64,000 nt of DNA from Chitinispirillales bacterium. GTDB taxonomy: Bacteria; Fibrobacterota; Chitinivibrionia; Chitinivibrionales; Chitinispirillaceae. The notes under the pieces were generated by a model. The model made no database searches and was not told the DNA's origin. It saw only the letters and a list, made by a program, of their open reading frames with translations. Below, in pieces: positions 9,170 through 57,456 of this stretch; position 1 is the first letter of the stretch; every line of letters begins with the position of its first letter. The translations under genes were made by a program, and so were the position numbers. The stretch lies in NCBI GenBank assembly GCA_031254105.1, contig JAIRVB010000043.1, positions 1 to 64,000 on the forward strand, given 5' to 3'.

Positions 9170-9898
9170 AACAGATACCCCCCTGTATGACATTTTTTGT
9201 CCAGAGTTCGCCTGTTGAATAATCCTCTAACCATTTGTCGAAATCATTCTTGTTAAGCCGGTCAAAAACGGATTGAGGATATCCTGATATTGCGCCTCAT
9301 GTTCCTCACGCAGACGAAGCAGAAAAGGCGCGATATTGGAAGCATTCTCACGAAGCGTTTCATTGTCTTCAACAATCGTTCCCCACCGCATTGGAGCTCT
9401 TGGGGTTGTGTCGTGAAAATGATATACTTTCCAAGACATTATTTTATCGTAAACATACTTACTGTATATAGCATCATGAGTTTTACCATTCGCATGTTTT
9501 ACTAACAAAGAAGATTCATCGTTACTGTCCCCAAACATCCACCATTCATGTTTTCCATATTTATAAAAACGAGCCTCGTTTGATAACACGGGCGTCTCTT
9601 CGGTAGTAGGATTGATTGTAAACCGATAACCGTGATCACCAAAAAACATCTCAAAATTCATCTTGTCTGTAGTTTGACGACCATTATAAAGAATATCACT
9701 GATTCCGCCATTATCTATAACATATTTAGCAAGGTTTCCGTCCATTAAATTATGCAGCATCTTGAAAAAAGAGAGCAAATTACTTTTTCCCGCGCCATTA
9801 GCGCCGACAAGAACATTAAGGTTTTTTAATTCAAAGTCTTTTAGTTCCCTGATAGATTTAAAACCGTTTATTGTCAGTTTATCTAAAGCATCTCCCAT
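9162..9898 (-). pseudogene. SMC/AAA_21-type ATPase, internally deleted (partner of DUF4276)
   Basis: The N-terminal half is intact: LTINGFKSIRELKDFELKNL, then Walker A VGANGAGKSNLL, and the segment up to LLRLREEHEAQYQDILN. It then runs into PFLTGLTRMISTNG and stops at 9227. In another frame the expected C-terminal tail is present, DFDKWLEDYSTGELWTKNV (9162-9251), and its stop overlaps the DUF4276 start (ATGAGTAA). The region with the ABC signature and Walker B is gone. A paralogue carrying exactly that missing half lies at 30807-31412. ATPase plus DUF4276 operons are predicted defence modules; this one cannot function. Confidence 0.7.
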
Positions 9899-17953: not shown

Positions 17954-18814
17954 ATGTCTGGAGTATGGGCACATCTTTGCGAAAGCTTCCCCTTTGAGTG
18001 GGCGCAATACTCTTTTATGCAAAACGCTCTGCTTGCGGCTATTCTTCTGGCCCCTCTCTTTGCTCTTCCCGGCTGTCTTGTTGTCAACAACCGCATGGCT
18101 TTCTTTTCTGACGCCATCGGACACGCCGCGCTTACCGGAGTAGCTATCGGCGCTCTTGCGGGTATAGCCCAACCTCTGCCCTCTATGCTGATATTCGCGA
18201 TGTGCCTCGCGTTTGTCATTTCGTACCTAAGGAGAGTAAGCGCTGTACCCACAGATACTATAATAAGTATTGTAATGGCAGGATCAATGGCTCTTGGAAT
18301 AGTAATTCTTTCCCGTAAAGGCGGGTTCTCCCGCTATTCACGTTATTTGATTGGAGACCTTTTAAGCCTCTCGGCAGCGGATCTGTACATTATCGGTTTC
18401 ACACTATTATTTGTAATTGCGGTATGGCTGCTCCTGTTCAACAAGTTTTATCTGATAAGCTTCAACGAGACAATAGCCCGAAGCAGAAACATAAATGTCT
18501 GGGGTTATGATCTGTTCTTTTCCGTAATGGTAGCGTTCATAGTTACGCTTGCGGTGCAGTGGATCGGGATACTTGTTATAAACTCACTTCTTGTTTTACC
18601 TGCCGCGGCGGCGAGAAACATGGCGTCAAAACTTCGCATTTACGTAATCAGCGCGGTGCTGATTTCGCTTATGTCATGCGTGGGAGGGCTTGTGCTTTCT
18701 TTTTATTTAGCAACAGCGGCAGGGGCAACTATTGCGCTTGTAGCGCTTGGTTTTTATATTTTTTCGTTTGTTCCGAGCTGCCGCATCACAGGTGATAAAA
18801 AGCCGGGCGTGTAA
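17954..18814 (+). CDS. znuB: Zinc ABC transporter permease
   Basis: 286 residues of the ABC-3 family. It has the family's early motif CLVVNNRMAFFSDAIGHAAL (FxGDALSHA equivalent contacting the ATPase) and about eight membrane helices, with the conserved late segment GILVINSLLVLPAAAARNMA. It completes the znuACB importer. No Zur box was recognised upstream of znuA, so regulation is unclear. A MITE-like intergenic repeat begins directly at its stop codon. Confidence 0.92.
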   Translation: MSGVWAHLCESFPFEWAQYSFMQNALLAAILLAPLFALPGCLVVNNRMAFFSDAIGHAALTGVAIGALAGIAQPLPSMLIFAMCLAFVISYLRRVSAVPTDTIISIVMAGSMALGIVILSRKGGFSRYSRYLIGDLLSLSAADLYIIGFTLLFVIAVWLLLFNKFYLISFNETIARSRNINVWGYDLFFSVMVAFIVTLAVQWIGILVINSLLVLPAAAARNMASKLRIYVISAVLISLMSCVGGLVLSFYLATAAGATIALVALGFYIFSFVPSCRITGDKKPGV

Positions 18815-18965
18815 ATGATCTCCGTAATTTTTGCTAATCAATGCAGAAATAAAATGGCAGAATACAGAAATGTTAAAATCACTATGCAATATTCTATCAT
18901 TTTATTTCTGTATTGATTTGGGGTTGATTGAAAGATAAATTTACATAGAAATTTTACAGACTCAT
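18815..18965 (+). repeat. MITE-like intergenic element, copy 1
   Basis: 151 bp. Conserved left end ATGATCTCCGTAATTTTTGC then TAATCAATGCAGAAATA; a variable centre with several AATGCAGAA/TTCTGTATT half-palindromes; conserved right end TTGGGGTTGATTGAAAG, ATAAATTTAC, AGAAATTTTACAGACTCAT. The two ends form an imperfect terminal inverted repeat (ATGA.CTC.GTAA). Other copies: 36690-36918, 44464-44647, 44831-44995 and a right-end fragment at 46915-46950. No coding capacity. Confidence 0.65.
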
Positions 18966-25041: not shown

Positions 25042-25668
25042 TTAATAATAAATCCAAAGCAATACAGGTTTTTTACTGTCTTTCAACTTGGTATCCAAAT
25101 AAGTCATTGTTTCATCATCTACAACGGGACAACCTTCGCTCCAACCCATCGGCATATGAGAAGGATACATTTCAGAGGAAGGAACAAGCGAATAGGAATG
25201 AAGCACAACAATACGCTTAAAGGCGTTATTGTTGCCCGCTTCCAAACCATGCAATTTGTAATGTATATAAATACCCCACCGACTGCTTGAGCGATCGCCT
25301 ATTCTATATTTCCCAAGTGATGTCAGCAAACTCCCCTCCTGATTGCTGAAAAGCGGTTTATCGCCTGTACTTTTTTTATCGCCTTTTCCCCTTCCATGGG
25401 CGCACAAAGCCTGCCGTTCAATCTCCTGATTATTAAAATCATAAACAAACAAACGGTATTTTCCGGAATGAATTTTCATATCTACCAGTATACAAAAATC
25501 GGTATTATAGTGGTTTGTTTTACAAAACAATAACGCCTCTTTTGCTTTCTCATAAATATTTGTATTTTTTTCTTCCGGCAGCGCTACGTTTTGTGAAAAT
25601 AAAAAATTCGCTGAACCAATTGCCAAAACGAAAAAATATGAGTACATTATTTTTAAAGTTTTTTTCAT
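25042..25668 (-). CDS. Exported L,D-transpeptidase-like protein (YkuD_2)
   Basis: 208 residues with a signal peptide (IMYSYFFVLAIGSANFLFS). The mature part matches the murein L,D-transpeptidase catalytic domain family: CAHGRGKGDKKSTG, then SLLTSLGKYRIG, a LHGLEAGNNNAFKR block, His in VVLHSYSL, and the nucleophile Cys in MGWSEGCPVV. The spacing His to SxGCP is normal, so the enzyme should be active on peptidoglycan in the periplasm. It lies between the Kor operon and the VWA/ExbD operon but is separated from both by promoters or a terminator. Confidence 0.82.
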   Translation of the reverse strand: MKKTLKIMYSYFFVLAIGSANFLFSQNVALPEEKNTNIYEKAKEALLFCKTNHYNTDFCILVDMKIHSGKYRLFVYDFNNQEIERQALCAHGRGKGDKKSTGDKPLFSNQEGSLLTSLGKYRIGDRSSSRWGIYIHYKLHGLEAGNNNAFKRIVVLHSYSLVPSSEMYPSHMPMGWSEGCPVVDDETMTYLDTKLKDSKKPVLLWIYY

Positions 25669-29703: not shown

Positions 29704-30486
29704 TTACCCCCTCAATTTCGCTATGGATATGTTCGGGAACTCCGCGCCGCGGGCCGCGTCCATGATCTGAACGATTTTATCGAAGATCACTTCGTTTTCC
29801 GCCGCTATGATCAGGTCATCCGCGTCCTCAGCGTCACGGTAGCGCTCCTTTATCTTCATAAGACGGTTCTTGAGCTCATCGTAAGCGCTTAAAGGCTTGC
29901 TCTCAAATTCTACGGGGTTGGATACGATAATACGTCTGCGCGGATTGGTCAGCGCAAACACCGTATCTCCGGCATTTACCGACTTTACCGCAATCCCCTC
30001 AATATCTGTCAGCAGTTCACCATATTTGGTATACGCGCTTTTAATGATTTCACGTTTATCATCGGTAGAATACAGGAAGATATCGTACCGCTCGTGATCT
30101 GTAAGCTCCCTGCCGTCAGGATGTTTTGGGGAGATGCCGGGCCCATACTCAATAAGAGCGTCATAACCGTCTTTAGTGATGTAACGGTGATACTCCCTAT
30201 AGAAAAGGCTCGGCATAAATCCGCCCTTCGCGCCAAGGGTTATAGCGGAGTCAGTGACAATCGCGGTAAGAAGCATCTTGTTGCTCTTGTCTTCAGCCGA
30301 CTGCTTTGTTTGAGTTGAATCGGTTTGCGTTCCCCTGGAATCAGGAAGCTTAATGTCGATAACCGCAACTTTCGCGAATTCAGCGGAAACTATTAATAAT
30401 GGAATAAGCACAACCATGAGATTCATGAAGCACTTAAGGTCAAGCTCCGCCGCCGGTGAATTTGAAATTCTTAATTTGTTAGCCAT
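29704..30486 (-). CDS. ExbD/TolR-like protein, long form
   Basis: 260 residues starting after a clear GAGAGGAGTAAGGT. N-terminal SNSPAAELDLKCFMNLMVVLI enters a membrane helix (LMVVLIPLLIVSAEFAKVAVI). The ExbD pattern is retained but the proton-carrying Asp is replaced by Asn or Cys in this stretch (KCFMNLM). The periplasmic domain is larger than usual, with a roughly 100-residue insertion (SLFYREYHRYITKDGYDALI). Ends with ExbD-like FDKIVQIMDAARGAEFPNI. Two unequal ExbDs in tandem are typical of Agl/Glt-like motors in deltaproteobacteria, where only one carries protons. Confidence 0.8.
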   Translation of the reverse strand: MANKLRISNSPAAELDLKCFMNLMVVLIPLLIVSAEFAKVAVIDIKLPDSRGTQTDSTQTKQSAEDKSNKMLLTAIVTDSAITLGAKGGFMPSLFYREYHRYITKDGYDALIEYGPGISPKHPDGRELTDHERYDIFLYSTDDKREIIKSAYTKYGELLTDIEGIAVKSVNAGDTVFALTNPRRRIIVSNPVEFESKPLSAYDELKNRLMKIKERYRDAEDADDLIIAAENEVIFDKIVQIMDAARGAEFPNISIAKLRG

Positions 30487-30532: not shown

Positions 30533-30574
30533 CTACCCCTGAACCGCGCGCCAGCTATTTTTCGTTTCATTCAT
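30533..30574 (-). other. 13-codon leader ORF upstream of the ExbD operon, MarR-gene-like
   Basis: MNETKNSWRAVQG with an excellent AAGGAG eight bases upstream of the ATG, ending 46 bases before the first ExbD gene. Its beginning resembles the start of the MarR protein encoded at 33920 (MNEIKNQLAG), and the promoter in front is also shared. It is most likely the decayed 5' end of a second marR copy left when the regulatory region was duplicated; translation as a leader peptide is possible. The similarity is seen by eye at both DNA and protein level. Confidence 0.4.
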
Positions 30575-30754
30575 TCGCTTTGCTCCTTTCCTTTCGGTTT
30601 TGGTCTGATAGCTGTCTTTTTTGATCAATACGTGTGTTATTTGCACATAAACTTTACTGCATAGCCAAGTACTTTACCATTTCTTTTAAAAAAAGTGTCA
30701 TTTCTATTTGTTTTTAGTTTGACACTTGCCCTTCTTGATCAGGTTCTATTATTA

Positions 30755-30785
30755 AGTATACATTAAATTTACTTGTTGGGCAAGT
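30755..30785 (-). promoter_or_regulatory. Promoter and MarR-type operator of the ExbD operon
   Basis: On the minus strand TTGCCC (30778-30783) is 17 bases from TATACT (30755-30760), a good sigma-70 promoter reading toward the ExbD genes. The -35 box lies inside a perfect dyad ACTTG-N5-CAAGT (30771-30785). A closely related 60-bp stretch with the same arrangement precedes the MarR gene (33961-34020). A repressor bound here would block RNA polymerase. Confidence 0.6.
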
Positions 30786-30806
30786 GCTTTATTATATTTT
30801 TTAGAA

Positions 30807-31412
30807 GTGCTACGGAATGAGGTAAAACCTGTTTATGATGCGATAATATCGTGGAAAGTATATCATTTTCATGATACAAGCCCAATGGCCCCAATGCGAG
30901 GATGGGAGATTATTGAAGACAATAAAACGCTTCGTGCGGACGCTTCAAATATCGCGCCTTTTCTGCTTCGTTTGCGTGAAGAATGTGAGGATGAATATCA
31001 AAATATCCTCAATGTCTGTCAAATCGTTATACCGTATCTAAAAGATTTTCTGCTCAAAAAAAAGACGTTTGGAAAAGCCGGTGAGATCAAAAAAGTTAAT
31101 CTTTCATGGAAAACTAAATATTCCGATTTTCCCATGCAACCGTACCATTTATCAGATGGCAGTATTCGTTTTATCTGCTTCGCAACCGCGCTTTTGCAGC
31201 TTGATCCGCCGTTTACGCTGATTACTAACGAGCCTGAACTTGGCTTGCATCCGGAGGCGATACATATTCTTGGTGAACTCATTAGAGCAACAACGCAGCG
31301 AACGCAAATTATTATTGCGGCTCAGTCACCGTTGTTAGTTGACATGTTTAATATTGAAAATATTGTCGTAGTTACTCGCGAAAATAATCAATCCGTCTTT
31401 AAGAGAAAATAA
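30807..31412 (+). pseudogene. C-terminal half of an SMC/AAA_21-type ATPase
   Basis: 201 residues lacking the N-terminal Walker A half. It starts at a segment (ISWKVYHFHDTSPMAPMR, then NIAPFLLRLREECEDEYQ) that is about 70% alike to the C-terminal end of the ATPase fragment at 9227. It continues through the parts missing there: signature-like HLSDGSIRFICFATALL, Walker B region TLITNEPELGLHPEAI, and IIAAQSPLLVDMF. It stops before the expected GELW tail. There is no ribosome binding site and no DUF4276 gene follows. A second, separately decayed copy of the same predicted defence ATPase. Confidence 0.7.
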
Positions 31413-31469
31413 TAGGACTTTCAAAAAGCATAGTTTTTATAACCTAATGTTTGATTTTATTATATAATT

Positions 31470-31489
31470 GTCTTATTTTTATATAAGAC
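31470..31489. promoter_or_regulatory. Dyad upstream of the XRE regulator
   Basis: GTCTTAT-N6-ATAAGAC, 7-bp perfect arms, lies about 100 bases upstream of the small XRE-type ORF. Lambda-Cro-like regulators commonly bind such dyads in their own promoters. The function is inferred from position only. Confidence 0.35.
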
Positions 31490-31587
31490 TCACTTATTTA
31501 TAAGGAGCCAGGACAAAAAGACCATCATGCCGCAAAGGTGAATTTGGCGCAATGTGCTCCAAAATAATGGAGCTATAAAGGAACTTT

Positions 31588-31874
31588 ATGAAATTTGATT
31601 ATGCTAATTTGCGGGGACGCATTGTGGCGAAAAAATATAATCAGGCCAAACTTGCTGAGAAGCTTGGTATTACAGGATGACGCTTCCATCGAAACTTAGT
31701 GGATACAGTTGGTTCTCACAAAAGCAAATTGTAAAAATCTGTAAAGTTCTTGAAATTGATAAGCACGATGTCTGGGATTACTTTCTTACCGGGGAAAAAC
31801 AAACCGAAGCATCTTTTCGCTTGCTTTCCTTAATACTAATATATATTAGTATCTATAATCTGAAAGGAATTTAA
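31588..31874 (+). pseudogene. XRE-type (phage DUF739-like) DNA-binding protein, frameshifted
   Basis: Frame 1 (31588-31680, AAAGGAAC upstream) encodes KFDYANLRGRIVAKKYNQAK, then LAEKLGITG and a TGA. The continuation, MTLPSKLSGYSWFSQKQIVK then ICKVLEIDKHDVWDYF, is in the next frame and begins at ATG 31677, overlapping the stop as ATGA. Joined, the two give a normal 60-70 residue helix-turn-helix protein of the DUF739/Cro kind. Either a one-base frameshift broke the gene or the two halves are translationally coupled. The helix-turn-helix is cut between its two helices, so the pieces would not bind DNA separately. Confidence 0.6.
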
Positions 31875-31884
31875 TATTAATAAT

Positions 31885-32748
31885 ATGATTATAGCTAACC
31901 CGATTTACGACGCGACATTTAAACGGCTTTTAGGAAATGACCGGATTGCGAAATTTTTTATTGGAACTATTCTCAATTGCAAAGTGCTTTCTCTTGAACC
32001 GACTATCACCGAACGTACAAAAGTTGACAAAGATACCGGAAAGCTTACGCTTTTCCGCATGGACTTCGCCGCGACTATAAAAACCAAAGATGAAGGTGAA
32101 AAACGGGTAATTATTGAGATGCAAAAAGCGATGCACCTTGCGGACGTTACACGTTTCAGAGAGTATCTTGGCAATGAATATATTAAATCTGAGCTTCCCA
32201 TAATCGCGATATACATACTTGGCTTTAACTTGTCTGTTGACTCCGTAGCATTTGGCAATGTGCCTGTTTACCGTGATCTTCGAACAGATGAAATACTTGA
32301 TCCCCGTGACGATTTTGTCGAACATTTAACCCACAGCGCATATTTTGTCCAAACACAGAGGATAAAACCAAATGTAAATACGAAGCTTGACAAATTACTT
32401 TCGATATTTGAACAGGCTAACTTCATAGGTAACAGTGAAACTACAAAAAGTTATCTGCTTGATATTGATGACCCTGAAATCAAAGAGCTATTAGAAGTCC
32501 TGCATTACGTAGCCGCAGATACCGAAGCGCGTAAAGAATTAGACGAGGAAGAGTACTACCGTAAAGCGATGGAAGGGATGTTTGGAAAGCAGAACAGGAA
32601 AATAGAACAACAGGCGCTTGAGATTTCCGAAGAAAAACAACGCACTAAACGCCTTATCAAAAAACTAACAGATATTGGAACACCCATAGAAGAAATCGTG
32701 GAAACCACAGGACTAAGTAAAGAAGATATCGAAAAACTAAATTCCTAA
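31885..32748 (+). CDS. PD-(D/E)XK nuclease family transposase (Rpn/PDDEXK_2)
   Basis: 287 residues. It begins ANPIYDATFKRLLGNDRIAK, as is standard for this family. The nuclease core is LFRMDFAATIKTKDEGEKRV followed by IIEMQKAM (D...E-x-Q). The C-terminal third is helical and charged. Family members form large paralogous groups in Fibrobacter and Bacteroidetes; Rpn proteins are RecA-independent recombination-promoting nucleases. It appears intact and starts ten bases after the XRE frame. Probably self-mobile or domesticated. Confidence 0.82.
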   Translation: MIIANPIYDATFKRLLGNDRIAKFFIGTILNCKVLSLEPTITERTKVDKDTGKLTLFRMDFAATIKTKDEGEKRVIIEMQKAMHLADVTRFREYLGNEYIKSELPIIAIYILGFNLSVDSVAFGNVPVYRDLRTDEILDPRDDFVEHLTHSAYFVQTQRIKPNVNTKLDKLLSIFEQANFIGNSETTKSYLLDIDDPEIKELLEVLHYVAADTEARKELDEEEYYRKAMEGMFGKQNRKIEQQALEISEEKQRTKRLIKKLTDIGTPIEEIVETTGLSKEDIEKLNS

Positions 32749-33190
32749 TTTCCAAAAAGGGGAGCAACCCCTCCCACCTTCTGCTCCATGAGCGGCAGCG
32801 CTTATCAGAGAATTTATCATAAAGAGGGGCTTTGCCTCAAATAAAAAAGGAGGGTTACTAAGACCCCCCCTCGTTCTATAATTTTTGGAAAAATAAAATT
32901 GAACTCACAAATTACGAAATAAACGGTATAATCGTACGTTCTGTTGATGGATCTTGTAAACAATATAACCAGTTAAAAAAAGTCATAAAACTACAACAGC
33001 AAAGAAAACCGCAAAGCTTCATTAAATATTCAAATTCCTAAAATAATTGTAACATTTGCTGTTTCTTTAAAGCGTTCACATTACTTCTATTATACAAATC
33101 CATACCCAAGAGCGCCTGTTGCACTTTAGCCTCTTCGAGGGAGTGCCGGATGCGCTTATTATTTGCATTGGCATTTTCTGTAAAGTTAAC
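32749..33190. other. Intergenic region with small hairpins
   Basis: Just after the PD-(D/E)XK gene are AGGGGAGCAACCCCT (about 32758) and GGAGGGT-N7-ACCCCCC (about 32851-32871), either of which could terminate transcription. From 33050 to 33190 the minus strand encodes a helical, charged stretch (KRIRHSLEEAKVQQALLGMD) ending in a stop at 33038. It has no clear start or family, and I do not call it a gene. Confidence 0.35.
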
Positions 33191-33316
33191 AAAAACGCGC
33201 TCCGGCAAATAGATGAAAACATGTACACAAGAGAATTGGAAAAAGAGTGCTATACAGATATCATTAAGTATGGCATTGGTTTTTGTAAAAAAAGATGTGA
33301 AGTAAGAAAAGAATAA
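33191..33316 (+). pseudogene. C-terminal remnant of an AAA-ATPase/PD-(D/E)XK (DUF1703) protein
   Basis: The segment KNALRQIDENMYTREL followed by TDIIKYGIGFCKKRCEVRKE matches the C-terminal end of PDDEXK_9-type proteins (ALxQI..K.Y...L...II.YGIAF.KK...V). Only about 40 residues survive, and the preceding frame has no related sequence. Another relic of mobile or accessory DNA in this stretch. Confidence 0.45.
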
Positions 33317-33356
33317 GTTTAGGTCATTATACATAAGCTCAAAAACCCCTGACCTG

Positions 33357-33920
33357 TTACCTCCCACCCCGCCTTCCAAACCTCCGCCCAAACGACCCCA
33401 TCATACCCGAAACCCCATGTCTCGCAAAAAACCGTTCTCTAAAATAATCGGCATAATCATCATCATCAACCACATCTGATTTTTCGACAACCGCTTTTAT
33501 GATACGGTCTAAATAACCGGCCATATTCCGCTGCTCCTCTTCGTTTAAACAGTCAAGCGCGGCGTCTACGTCATCGACTTCAGCCTCAAGGCTACTTTCA
33601 TCGGGCAGGGCTTCGCGTCCTGAGTCAGTCAATTCTACAATGTAGGAACGGCGGTCTTTTTCAGACTGCGAACGGGTAATGTATCCGCTTTTCTCAAGCT
33701 TGCCAAGAAGCTCCGCCAACCCCTGCTTGCTCATATCAAGCAAATATCCCAGCTCTTTTTGCCCAATCCGGGGTTGAAGCTTGAGGATAGCCAGAATCCG
33801 TCCCTGTCCTCTGTGCGGACTAATGGCGGAACCATCGTTAGCGCGTTTTATATGGGAACGCAGCAGAAGTGACTCTAACCGCCTGAACTGTCCCGCTAAC
33901 TGATTTTTTATCTCATTCAT
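33357..33920 (-). CDS. MarR-family transcriptional regulator
   Basis: A winged-helix MarR protein of about 187 residues. Recognition region: ILKLQPRIGQKELGYLLDMS then KQGLAELLGKLEKSGYITRS; wing: SEKDRRSYIVELTDSGREAL. An unusual Gly/Arg/Phe-rich C-terminus (GMMGSFGRRFGRRGGR) ends the protein. I prefer ATG 33920 because the start of the leader ORF at 30574 matches there (MNEIKN/MNETKN); ATG 33932 and TTG 33953 are alternatives, and the TTG at 33992 lies inside the promoter -10 region. Its operator-like dyad is shared with the ExbD operon, which it may repress. Confidence 0.82.
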   Translation of the reverse strand: MNEIKNQLAGQFRRLESLLLRSHIKRANDGSAISPHRGQGRILAILKLQPRIGQKELGYLLDMSKQGLAELLGKLEKSGYITRSQSEKDRRSYIVELTDSGREALPDESSLEAEVDDVDAALDCLNEEEQRNMAGYLDRIIKAVVEKSDVVDDDDYADYFRERFFARHGVSGMMGSFGRRFGRRGGR

Positions 33921-33981
33921 CTGCTTTACCATCTCTCCTGCCAGGCTTGGCAACGCGTCCTTAATCAAGTTTCTATTATTA

Positions 33982-34013
33982 AATATACACAAACCTTACT
34001 GTTTGGGCAAGTA
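33982..34013 (-). promoter_or_regulatory. MarR gene promoter with operator-like dyad
   Basis: Minus-strand TTGCCC (34005-34010), 17-base spacer, TATATT (33982-33987). Overlapping the -35 is TACTG-N6-CAAGTA (33997-34013), a slightly degenerate form of the perfect ACTTG-N5-CAAGT dyad at 30771-30785. The arrangement suggests autorepression. Confidence 0.55.
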
Positions 34014-34079
34014 CCTTATTATTTTAAAATAGCAGCAACATCGGTCAGTTTTTTAATGAGGTAATGCGAGAAAAGCAAT

Positions 34080-36438: not shown

Positions 36439-36689
36439 CTTTAATAGTGATCCTTTTTATGCAGGAATTTTCATTCCTTATTATTTAATAATTATTGTTG
36501 ACATGCGAGAGTCAATCATCCGCCCGCCGGGGCCGATGAAGCGTTATCCTTTCGTATGGAAAATAAGATTTGCGCGGGGAAACGGCGAGGTTTTTGTTTG
36601 AGCGGACAATGATGGTTCTGGTTTCAGGTATTGATCCGCAGTTTACTGATATTATATCTCCATTTATATCAATTAAAGAGAGCGGGTAT
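36439..36689. other. Intergenic region, possible coding relic
   Basis: No recognised gene. On the minus strand (about 36512-36690) an open stretch ends in ISVNCGSIPETRTIIVRSNK and ERITLHRPRRADD. It looks protein-like but has no family I can name and no ribosome binding site. It may be the tail of a lost gene. Confidence 0.3.
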
Positions 36690-36918
36690 ATGATCTCTGT
36701 AATCTCGCTAATCAATACAGAAACAATGAACTACCTCTCAGCAGAGCTGCGGGGTATTAATACCAGTGGATTCAAGTCTTTATATAGTGAAGCAAAGCTT
36801 CGGGGAATCAGACCCGCTGGGATTAAAAATACTTAAATAATATAACAAAAAAATATTTGATATATCTTTATTTCTGCATTTGCTTTGGGTTGATTGAAAA
36901 ATAAATTTACAGACTCAT
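36690..36918 (+). repeat. MITE-like intergenic element, copy 2, with internal repeats
   Basis: 229 bp. Left end ATGATCTCTGTAATCTCGCT then AATCAATACAGAAA; right end TTGATTGAAAAATAAATTTA then CAGACTCAT. The centre holds two degenerate direct repeats of about 36 bp, one near 36739 (GCAGAGCTGCGGGGTATTAA) and one near 36790 (GCAAAGCTTCGGGGAATCAG). Longer than the other copies because of this insert. Confidence 0.6.
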
Positions 36919-44463: not shown

Positions 44464-44647
44464 ATGATTTTCTGTAATTTGTGCTACAAATCAACGTGTA
44501 ATCAATGCGGAAATAAGGAATTAAAACAGGGTTGATTTTTTTTGCCGTATAGTGTTTTCTATTCCAGCATTCCGCCATTCTATTCCTGGATTTGTTTTTT
44601 GGGTCAATTTGGAAGATGAATTTGCGGAAAAAATTTTGCAGGCTCAT
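44464..44647 (+). repeat. MITE-like intergenic element, copy 3
   Basis: 184 bp. Left end ATGATTTTCTGTAATTTGTGC; centre with AATGCGGAAATAAGGAATT and CCAGCATTCCGCCATTC; right end GTCAATTTGGAAGATGAATT then TTTGCAGGCTCAT. More divergent than copies 1 and 4. Confidence 0.6.
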
Positions 44648-44830
44648 CAAGCCTTAAAATCTCAAATATAGCGGCAGTGTCGCAATTCGAGCCTATTTTA
44701 TTTTGAAAAAAATAATCCTGTACGTATATTTATATATTAGGATATCTCTTTTTTGTGGACAGTAAATGTAGAGGACAGAGCAGGGAACCACGTTTTCTCC
44801 AAGAACGTGATAAATAAAAGAGCGTGTCAA
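44648..44830. other. Spacer between two MITE-like copies
   Basis: A+T-rich; contains the small dyad CACGTTTTCTCCAAGAACGTG (44789-44809). No gene. Possibly the promoter region for the fmdB-type gene. Confidence 0.3.
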
Positions 44831-44995
44831 TCTTTTCTGTAATTTTGCTGATCAATGCAGAAATCAGGATAAATATATCGTAGAATTTTCGCTATACTAT
44901 TAAATGCTTTCTATTTCTGCATTCTGCATTATTATCTCTGCATTTGTCTTGGGGTTCATTGAAAGATAAATTTACGGAGAAATTTTATAGGCTCC
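44831..44995 (+). repeat. MITE-like intergenic element, copy 4
   Basis: 165 bp. Left end TCTTTTCTGTAATTTTGCTG, ATCAATGCAGAAAT; centre TTTCTGCATTCTGCATTATT; right end TTGGGGTTCATTGAAAG, ATAAATTTAC, AGAAATTTTATAGGCTCC. Ends 18 bases before the fmdB-type gene, overlapping its ribosome binding region. Confidence 0.62.
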
Positions 44996-55618: not shown

Positions 55619-55850
55619 TTTCGTAAATTCATATAGCATTTAATCAAAGGGGGGCTTATGTACAAACAGGGCAAAAGAAGTTAGTTTTTTCTCTGTGTTC
55701 GCGGTTTTTGCCGCGCAAAGAAGTTTTAAGTTTTCGTAAATTCATATAACATTTAATCAAAGGGGAGCCTATGTACAAACAGGGCAAAAGAAGTTTTAAG
55801 TTTACGTTAGTTTTTTTCTCTGTGTTTGCGGTTTTTGCCGCGCAAAGAAG
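55619..55850 (+). repeat. 113-bp tandem duplication of a gene's 5' end
   Basis: Copy 1 (55619-55724) and copy 2 (55732-55850) share the upstream AAATTCATATA.CATTTAATC, the AAAGGGG ribosome binding site, the ATG and the first eight codons (YKQGKRS), and the signal-peptide coding stretch. Copy 1 has lost 17 bases inside the signal peptide, so its ORF (55658-55684) stops after eight codons. The functional gene begins in copy 2. Confidence 0.85.
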
Positions 55851-57456
55851 TGCACATGGTACTGACTCCGGGAGTGTAACGGTAATCAGCAAAACAAAAC
55901 ATACTATCACAATCAGAACTAACGGCAATGGAACCGTCAGTAAAAACCCTGATTTTTCCAGCGGGTACCCCCTTATCGACACCTGTTTTTATGGGGATAC
56001 AGTCACGCTTACCGCTGTTCCCAACCCCGGTTATATATTTGACAGATGGTGGGGAGAAGGACTTACTGTAGATAGTAATAATCCGCTAGTTGCGACAGTA
56101 TCAATGACCGCGGACAGACATCTCGCTGCATATTTTGCTCCTGTGCCGGCAAGTTACAGACTTTTTACGTACGTTGAAGGTCAGGGAAGAATTGTCTCTA
56201 ATCCTTCACTTGATCCTGCTACGGGCAGTTACCAACAAGGAACGGTTGTTACTCTTACCGCGATACCTGATAGCGGTTGGAAATTTTCCAATTGGAGCTA
56301 TAGCTTAGCCGATTATATCCCGCCGTACGACACAGTTGTTCTTACCACTTGGAGCAATAACGGACTTACCGAATACATGAATGATTCGCTTACTATAACG
56401 GTAACAATGAACAGCAATATAAGAATTGTGGCTGTGTTTACAAGGACAGCGCTGCCAGCCGGATCGGCCAGGTACATTGCCGGACGGGGAGGAAATATCA
56501 CATATCATGGCGCTCCCACTGTATGGAATGGTTTGCACAAAGAAGTAACTGTTTCAATGAATGAAGCAGTTCAAATTCAGGCTATACCTGACAGTGGTTA
56601 CGTATTTCTAAGATGGAGTGACGGCTCTACTGATCCTCTTCGTGATGTGAGACCGGATATTTCAACAAGGAACAATGAGTTTACCGCGTTTTTTGATTAT
56701 GCGGGTATTAATGGTGATAATCTCGTTTGTCTTTTTCGCCCCTGCAGTGGTTATAATGGCGGCTGGGCATTTAATATCTCAGAAAGCGGGAGCATCCAAG
56801 CTGACGGAAAAGCTGTCGGTGATACGGAATATGCGTTCACGATCACCAAAGCGGGCCGCGATCCGCGGGATGTACGGTTGACGCATAATATAATTCTTGA
56901 CCGTCATAAAACGTATGAACTGAATTTCAGAGCGCGCGCGCAATCGCCCAGAACAGTAGTTGTTACTGTTGAGTCAGGCAGCGTTGCCGAGCGGTGGGAA
57001 GTGTTCCTCACAACCGAAGTGCGGGAGTTCAGAAAAACTTTTACTACCGGCGCGGTCCCAGAACCCAATTCCTTCCCAGTAATGAATGTCATAGACGTCT
57101 CGTTCAACAGCGGCCACGAAGCTGTAAACTGGAATCTATCCGATGTTAATCTCGTTTTGGCTAAGGCGCTTAATGTGAATCAAGCGGCAAAACAGCGGCC
57201 CAATACCGCGGCCTGGTCAGTAAAACAAGTCGGGAACAAGCTGCAACTTAACGGCCCAAATACCGCTAACGCGAAAATATCATTTTATGATATGCGTGGA
57301 AAGTTAGTGAAAACAATATCAAAAACAGCCGGAACGAATCAGATTTTAATGCTTAATAGTTTGAGGATTCCATCGGGCTCTTATATTATGGCCGTCAAAA
57401 ACAACTCTTCGGGCCATGAAGTTTACAGAACTAAGGTTACATTGACAAAAAGATAA
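55771..57456 (+). CDS. Secreted InlB-like repeat protein with C-terminal sorting domain
   Basis: 561 residues. Signal peptide (LVFFSVFAVFAAQRSA). Three or more divergent InlB B-repeats of the bacterial_repeat/Flg_new type: TVSKNPDFSSGYPLI, VTLTAVPNPGYIFDRWWGEG, VTLTAIPDSGWKFSNWSYS, IQAIPDSGYVFLRWSDGS. A carbohydrate-binding-like beta-sandwich follows (WAFNISESGSI, YELNFRARAQSP). The end (ISFYDMRGKLVKTISK, SGSYIMAVKN) is a type-IX-style or Fibrobacter C-terminal sorting domain. Likely cell-surface or secreted, glycan-binding. Strong AAAGGGGAG ribosome binding site, duplicated upstream. Confidence 0.82.
   Translation: MYKQGKRSFKFTLVFFSVFAVFAAQRSAHGTDSGSVTVISKTKHTITIRTNGNGTVSKNPDFSSGYPLIDTCFYGDTVTLTAVPNPGYIFDRWWGEGLTVDSNNPLVATVSMTADRHLAAYFAPVPASYRLFTYVEGQGRIVSNPSLDPATGSYQQGTVVTLTAIPDSGWKFSNWSYSLADYIPPYDTVVLTTWSNNGLTEYMNDSLTITVTMNSNIRIVAVFTRTALPAGSARYIAGRGGNITYHGAPTVWNGLHKEVTVSMNEAVQIQAIPDSGYVFLRWSDGSTDPLRDVRPDISTRNNEFTAFFDYAGINGDNLVCLFRPCSGYNGGWAFNISESGSIQADGKAVGDTEYAFTITKAGRDPRDVRLTHNIILDRHKTYELNFRARAQSPRTVVVTVESGSVAERWEVFLTTEVREFRKTFTTGAVPEPNSFPVMNVIDVSFNSGHEAVNWNLSDVNLVLAKALNVNQAAKQRPNTAAWSVKQVGNKLQLNGPNTANAKISFYDMRGKLVKTISKTAGTNQILMLNSLRIPSGSYIMAVKNNSSGHEVYRTKVTLTKR

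Follow-up and report, generated by a model that had tools for sequence, protein, structure and literature searches.

The gene for a MarR-type regulator and a neighbouring exbD operon are preceded by homologous promoters, and we consider it rather probable that MarR controls both transcription units through a copied promoter/operator. Both lie in the 64,000-nucleotide stretch of DNA that was analysed (hereafter the window), which represents contig C13 of a genome of 3.68 Mb (G000). Judged from the sequences, the case for shared control stands on the homology and the distribution of the promoters, and not on the inverted repeat ACTTG-N5-CAAGT that was cited for it in a previous sequence-only reading of this DNA. 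The nearest named relatives of the genome are MAGs of the Chitinispirillia/Chitinispirillales (Fibrobacterota), which, on the basis of isolate names and general knowledge, we take to originate from termite guts.

Homologous promoters upstream of marR and the exbD operon

30734..30798, minus strand: promoter copy A (exbD operon), TTGCCC-17-TATACT at 30755-30783
33960..34025, minus strand: promoter copy B (marR), TTGCCC-17-TATATT at 33982-34010
30620..30682, minus strand: degenerate copy A', located between exbD1 and A; has retained the -35 side, with AAAGTACTTG at 30666-30675, and lost the -10 (TGCAAA)

Copy A precedes exbD1 and copy B precedes marR, and both promoters read to the minus strand. 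Pairwise alignment showed the two copies to be alike over 66 nt (80% identity, one gap), or over 58 nt (81%) if no gaps were allowed. The local alignment score was 38, whereas 2000 shuffles that preserved the dinucleotides reached at most 18 (0/2000). This bears out the repeat of about 60 bases that had been noted at 30738-30800 and 33961-34022. The same is true for the TTGCCC -35 box, the 17-base spacing and the -10 box on the minus strand in both copies, and the alignment of A and B likewise supports the view that homologous promoters are located ahead of both marR and the ExbD operon. A and B differ at 12 of 65 sites overall, and at just one of 16 sites around the -10. The best-conserved blocks are TAARGYACTTG, AGTAA and TTGATCAA, and the likeness takes in the spacer as well as the flanking DNA upstream and the stretch that follows the -10. 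Compared to the dS values of 0.64-0.91 between the exbD genes of the window and their paralogues on contig C17, these few changes make the two promoters look constrained, provided that the promoter and exbD duplications are of similar age.

According to a profile of the three copies, A, B and A' are the only ones in the 3.68-Mb genome (next match E 0.5), and no copy was found in the 23 other genomes of the family that served as comparison set for this motif. All three are located within 3.5 kb, in one orientation and ahead of a gene start, and the promoter is intact in two of them. marR and the promoter family occur together in the window genome, and neither was found in any other genome of the family. 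The search of the 25-36 kb region for Rfam elements gave none.

A tandem duplication in the exbD leader

30584..30806, minus strand: tandem-duplication units 30806-30698 and 30691-30584, which hold A and A'

The two copies recognized in the sequence-only reading, A and B, are real, but the third copy and the tandem duplication from which it derives had been missed. The alignment of A' with A has a score of 24, as compared to a shuffle maximum of 20, and A' matches the profile with an E-value of 2.7e-15, A' itself being part of the model. Since A and A' remain alike over 109 bp (score 67, versus a maximum of 42 among 961 AT-rich background pieces), the exbD leader is, on sequence grounds, an old tandem duplication of about 115 bp. 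TRF did not call a tandem array in this leader at the parameters used. The private changes of A' cluster from the -10 onward, where they affect 9 of 16 columns versus 7 of 39 columns upstream (Fisher p=0.008), and A' retains the site on the -35 side and the TTGATCAA element. Such a pattern is what one would expect if sites bound by protein persist longer than the function of the promoter.

The exbD leader also contains a small open reading frame with a good ribosome-binding site (MNETKNSWRAVQG, 30533-30574), and it is possible that a leader peptide is encoded there. A similar very short open reading frame (ATGACAAGATAG) is located ahead of an exbB-less exbD1 gene in another genus of the family (L007).

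An exbB-less paralogue of a motor operon

29704..30486, minus strand: exbD1 paralogue, 260 aa; PF02472
29205..29702, minus strand: exbD2 paralogue, 165 aa; PF02472
27848..29182, minus strand: paralogue of the gene for an AgmX/GltG-type TonB-like protein; NF033768, NF033760
25748..27694, minus strand: YfbK-type von Willebrand factor A protein, perhaps in the same operon
25042..25668, minus strand: YkuD_2 L,D-transpeptidase, perhaps the operon's last gene
30807..31412, plus strand: truncated AAA ATPase adjoining copy A; its likeness to a fragment at 9227-9898 stops at 30830

Both ExbD proteins of the window contain the ExbD/TolR domain (PF02472). exbB is absent from this operon, and an exbB-like gene is present on contig C17. 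Indeed, on C17, as in relatives, exbD1, exbD2 and agmX come after a gene for a 208-aa ExbB-like protein, which we take to be ExbB from its position, size and sequence, and from knowledge of the family. The exbD1, exbD2 and agmX products of the window show 80%, 88% and 71% protein identity, respectively, to those of C17. Identities of the ExbD pair to the proteins of a genome from the same genus (G001) are lower, namely 74-77%, and the duplication is therefore probably younger than the split from G001. By these comparisons, the exbD operon of the window is specific to its lineage and represents a paralogue, without exbB, of a standard exbB-exbD-exbD-agmX operon. The previous reading had correctly seen an ExbD operon behind a marR-type promoter, but had not recognized that the genome has a complete operon at another place, of which this one is a paralogue without exbB.

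The position of the likeness boundary in the AAA gene may reflect how the operon came to lie behind copy A. The AAA fragments (AAA_21/MAD3-like) are 82% identical in DNA between 9272-9455 and 30830-31013 and are cut at different ends. As the likeness ends at 30830, this position can be regarded as a sign of a rearrangement junction beside copy A.

An exbB-less exbD1-exbD2-agmX block also exists in another genus of the family (L007:1770-6277), where an additional agmX-like gene precedes it. The YfbK-type protein of the window and the AgmX-like protein encoded upstream of it share a 44-aa segment (around ADIFGKGG...DIDAVL), and this segment of the YfbK-type protein is 75% identical to the AgmX copy of C17.

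marR and its relatives

33357..33926, minus strand: marR, 189 aa, with an Arg/Gly-rich tail; PF01047 E 6e-11

The MarR winged-helix domain was identified with 42.5 bits (PF01047, cut-off 24.6), and the protein matches several MarR structures. The ATG at 33926 is likely to be the start codon, rather than the TTG at 33992, because GGAGAG is found just upstream of it. No match to this MarR was obtained at E 1e-10 in 60 relatives, and the genes that come after the proS-PAP2 pair in G001 are different ones and do not include marR. Among 168 Fibrobacterota genomes, the best other match was 32% identical (genome G154), and the best plasmid match, a Lactobacillus protein, was 36-37% identical over most of its length. 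The search for a source of the window MarR thus returned just distant relatives. Considering this distance and the absence of marR from the rest of the family, it is likely that the gene was laterally acquired. The relatives have an RGQGRIL-like motif in common with the window MarR, but the recognition helix differs, reading QGLAEL in the window MarR versus SLSEL or SLNEM in the relatives. The operator of the window MarR may therefore have changed along with its recognition helix.

A GTAC-centred candidate operator

33960-33975, minus strand: candidate second half-site of B, in TAGAAACTTGATTAAG; weak
within 30734-30748, minus strand: candidate second half-site of A, CCTGATCAAG; weak

The dyad that had been proposed as operator, ACTTG-N5-CAAGT, is indeed perfect in A (30771-30785) and degenerate in B, where it reads ACTTG-N5-ACAGT. 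However, a perfect 5-bp dyad with a spacer of 3-8 nt arises in 39% of shuffled 65-mers of the same composition, and in both B and A' the left arm is retained while the right arm is altered at two places without compensation. For these reasons, the dyad was rejected as evidence for an operator. The proposed search for more promoters of this kind gave no further copy in the genome, and the dyad pattern with one mismatch occurs at chance level in the window. The best dyad common to the three copies is TACT-N9-AGTA, which has the same centre and 11 of 12 pairs, and its columns hardly vary. As the three copies are related by descent, covariation of dyad positions cannot be shown from them.

Three relatives of the window MarR each bear two GGTACC palindromes ahead of their own gene. 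These relatives are encoded by a Lactobacillus intestinalis plasmid (NZ_CP072985, locus L093; 36% identity to the window MarR), by G154 (L102; 32%) and by a viral contig (L104), the latter having been found with a profile of the subfamily (35% to L093). The sites are CTACAGGTACCTGTAG and ACAGGTACCTGAT for the Lactobacillus gene (33 nt apart, L093:3918-3982), AAGGTACCTT and TAGGTACCTTA for the G154 gene (43 nt, L102:2366-2428) and AGAGGTACCGCG and AAGAGGTACCTCTT for the viral-contig gene (23 nt, L104:1911-1950), so that the spacings differ by steps of ten. The exact pair AGGTACCT-N12-38-AGGTACCT occurs once in the 168 Fibrobacterota genomes, namely ahead of the MarR relative of G154, where the first palindrome abuts a TTGCAA-17-TATATT promoter. 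In copy B, AAGGTACTTG (34008-34017) abuts the -35 of TTGCCC-17-TATATT at a position matching that of the palindrome in G154. It has one mismatch to the AGGTACCT core, a likeness that 3.7% of shuffles reach. The corresponding site of A', AAAGTACTTG, has two mismatches (reached by 18% of shuffles), and that of A, AAAGCACTTG (30781-30790), has three (92%). Of the three, copy A, which is the working promoter of the exbD operon, is thus least like the GTAC-type site, and its match is indistinguishable from chance. A pair of AGGTACCT sites flanking the -10 was not found in B, which has one near-match and, 42 nt away, a weak half-site. Alignments of the whole promoters A or B with those of the MarR relatives were not significant. 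The window genome contains one exact WAGGTACCTW site, on contig C35, away from the A and B promoters. Altogether, the marR operator is probably located at AAGGTACTTG, about 7 nt from the dyad of the previous reading, and the GTAC-centred site can be viewed as a lead for B, a weaker one for A', and as not visible in A.

Paired AGGTACCT sites in viral contigs were uninformative as a marker of such MarR genes. The 120 loci with such pairs, none of which encodes a MarR of this kind, lie mostly inside a long open frame, and spacings of 27 and 36 dominate among them.

A proposed circuit and its alternatives

We propose a common ancestor for A, B and A', namely the promoter/operator through which a laterally acquired MarR regulated its own gene. 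One descendant would drive marR, while the other would have been joined to the duplicated exbD1-exbD2-agmX block by a rearrangement near the truncated AAA ATPase gene. The block would have arrived without exbB and its native upstream region, and the promoter copy would then have been doubled in tandem. When no ligand is present, a MarR dimer would bind a site abutting the -35, probably one with GTAC at its centre (AAGGTACTTG in B and AAAGTACTTG in A'), with possible aid from the half-site just past the -10, and would thereby keep RNA polymerase from both promoters. Once it had bound its ligand, MarR would free both promoters, leading to more MarR and to an alternative ExbD/AgmX set that could serve the ExbB encoded on C17. 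The MarR module with the duplicated exbD set would thus form a local circuit of an ordinary kind, though one newly assembled in this lineage.

The main rival to shared control is promoter capture, in which a segment with a good promoter was duplicated onto the exbD block, so that the likeness merely reflects descent and core-promoter constraint and MarR is inactive on A. This seems somewhat unlikely to us. It would fit with the location of copy A at a rearrangement junction (30830) and with the fact that A has the poorest GTAC-type site. The chance level of the dyad also favours it, as does the fact that the -10 region is the best preserved part of A and B. However, the likeness of A and B in the flank, the spacer and past the -10 exceeds what a core promoter needs, and A' has lost its -10, yet retains the site on the -35 side. 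Alternatively, another regulator could bind the 66 nt and control both marR and the exbD operon, MarR being just a target. In favour of this, the best-conserved blocks form no single clean MarR-type palindrome. Nevertheless, we regard it as improbable, since such a regulator would serve these genes alone, there being no more copies in the genome, while marR and the motif share one narrow distribution and the MarR relatives have palindromes at the same place.

A shared 60-mer alone is no proof of function, because the window has other dispersed repeats of like strength, and the copies could in principle be members of a non-functional dispersed repeat family. This is very improbable, as the 3.68-Mb genome has just three copies, which lie in one orientation within a stretch of 3.5 kb, each ahead of a gene start and two of them with an intact promoter. 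A, B and A' are set apart from the other window repeats by their confinement to three sites and by the promoter they contain.

Returning to joint control by MarR, circuits in which a MarR regulates itself and a neighbouring target are well known. In Bacillus subtilis, the MarR-like repressor YvmB/PchR regulates its own promoter as well as other operons via copies of one short palindrome, with three boxes at its own promoter, and its binding and regulon were shown experimentally (PMC4992311). The YvmB box (GTTYMMYMGTAAAC) is unlike the sites in the window. Furthermore, marR and the exbD operon of the window have the entire 66-nt promoter in common and not just a box. The RGQGRIL-type relatives (L093, L102, L104) share the RGQGRIL-like motif with the window MarR, and GTAC-centred sites lie at the promoters of their genes, one close to the -35 or in the spacer and one past the -10. 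Their GGTACC pairs are clean, whereas the recognition helix of the window MarR has changed and its candidate site is less symmetrical, and none of these marR genes is linked to exbD. Neither a link between MarR and exbD nor a GGTACC MarR box was found in the literature searched. With the Glt/Agl gliding motors (AgmX, GltG) and the ExbB-ExbD-TonB systems, the window has in common an ExbD pair and a protein with the AgmX/GltG C-terminal domain. Unlike these systems, the window motor set is without ExbB, the complete set being on C17.

If this interpretation is true, it represents a small and clear case of a duplicated operon whose wiring to a new repressor came about through a copy of that repressor's promoter, and this in the Chitinispirillia, a bacterial group with little genetics. 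It would also suggest that ExbD subunits of an envelope motor can be replaced in an inducible manner. More tentatively, it is possible, though doubtful, that the full scenario applies, in which the acquired MarR brought its own promoter/operator, the copy on the ExbB-less ExbD/AgmX set provides inducible alternative subunits of a proton-driven envelope motor, and the MarR belongs to a cross-phylum subfamily with GTAC-centred sites in pairs at the promoters of its own genes, spaced by about 23, 33 or 43 nt.

Between the two promoters, a broken HTH gene (31590-31850) and a gene for an Rpn-type nuclease/putative transposase (31885-32748) are located. Other intergenic repeats of the window, both dispersed and tandem (70-87%), are found at 18792-18963, 36671-36913, 44501-44994 and 55619-55851.
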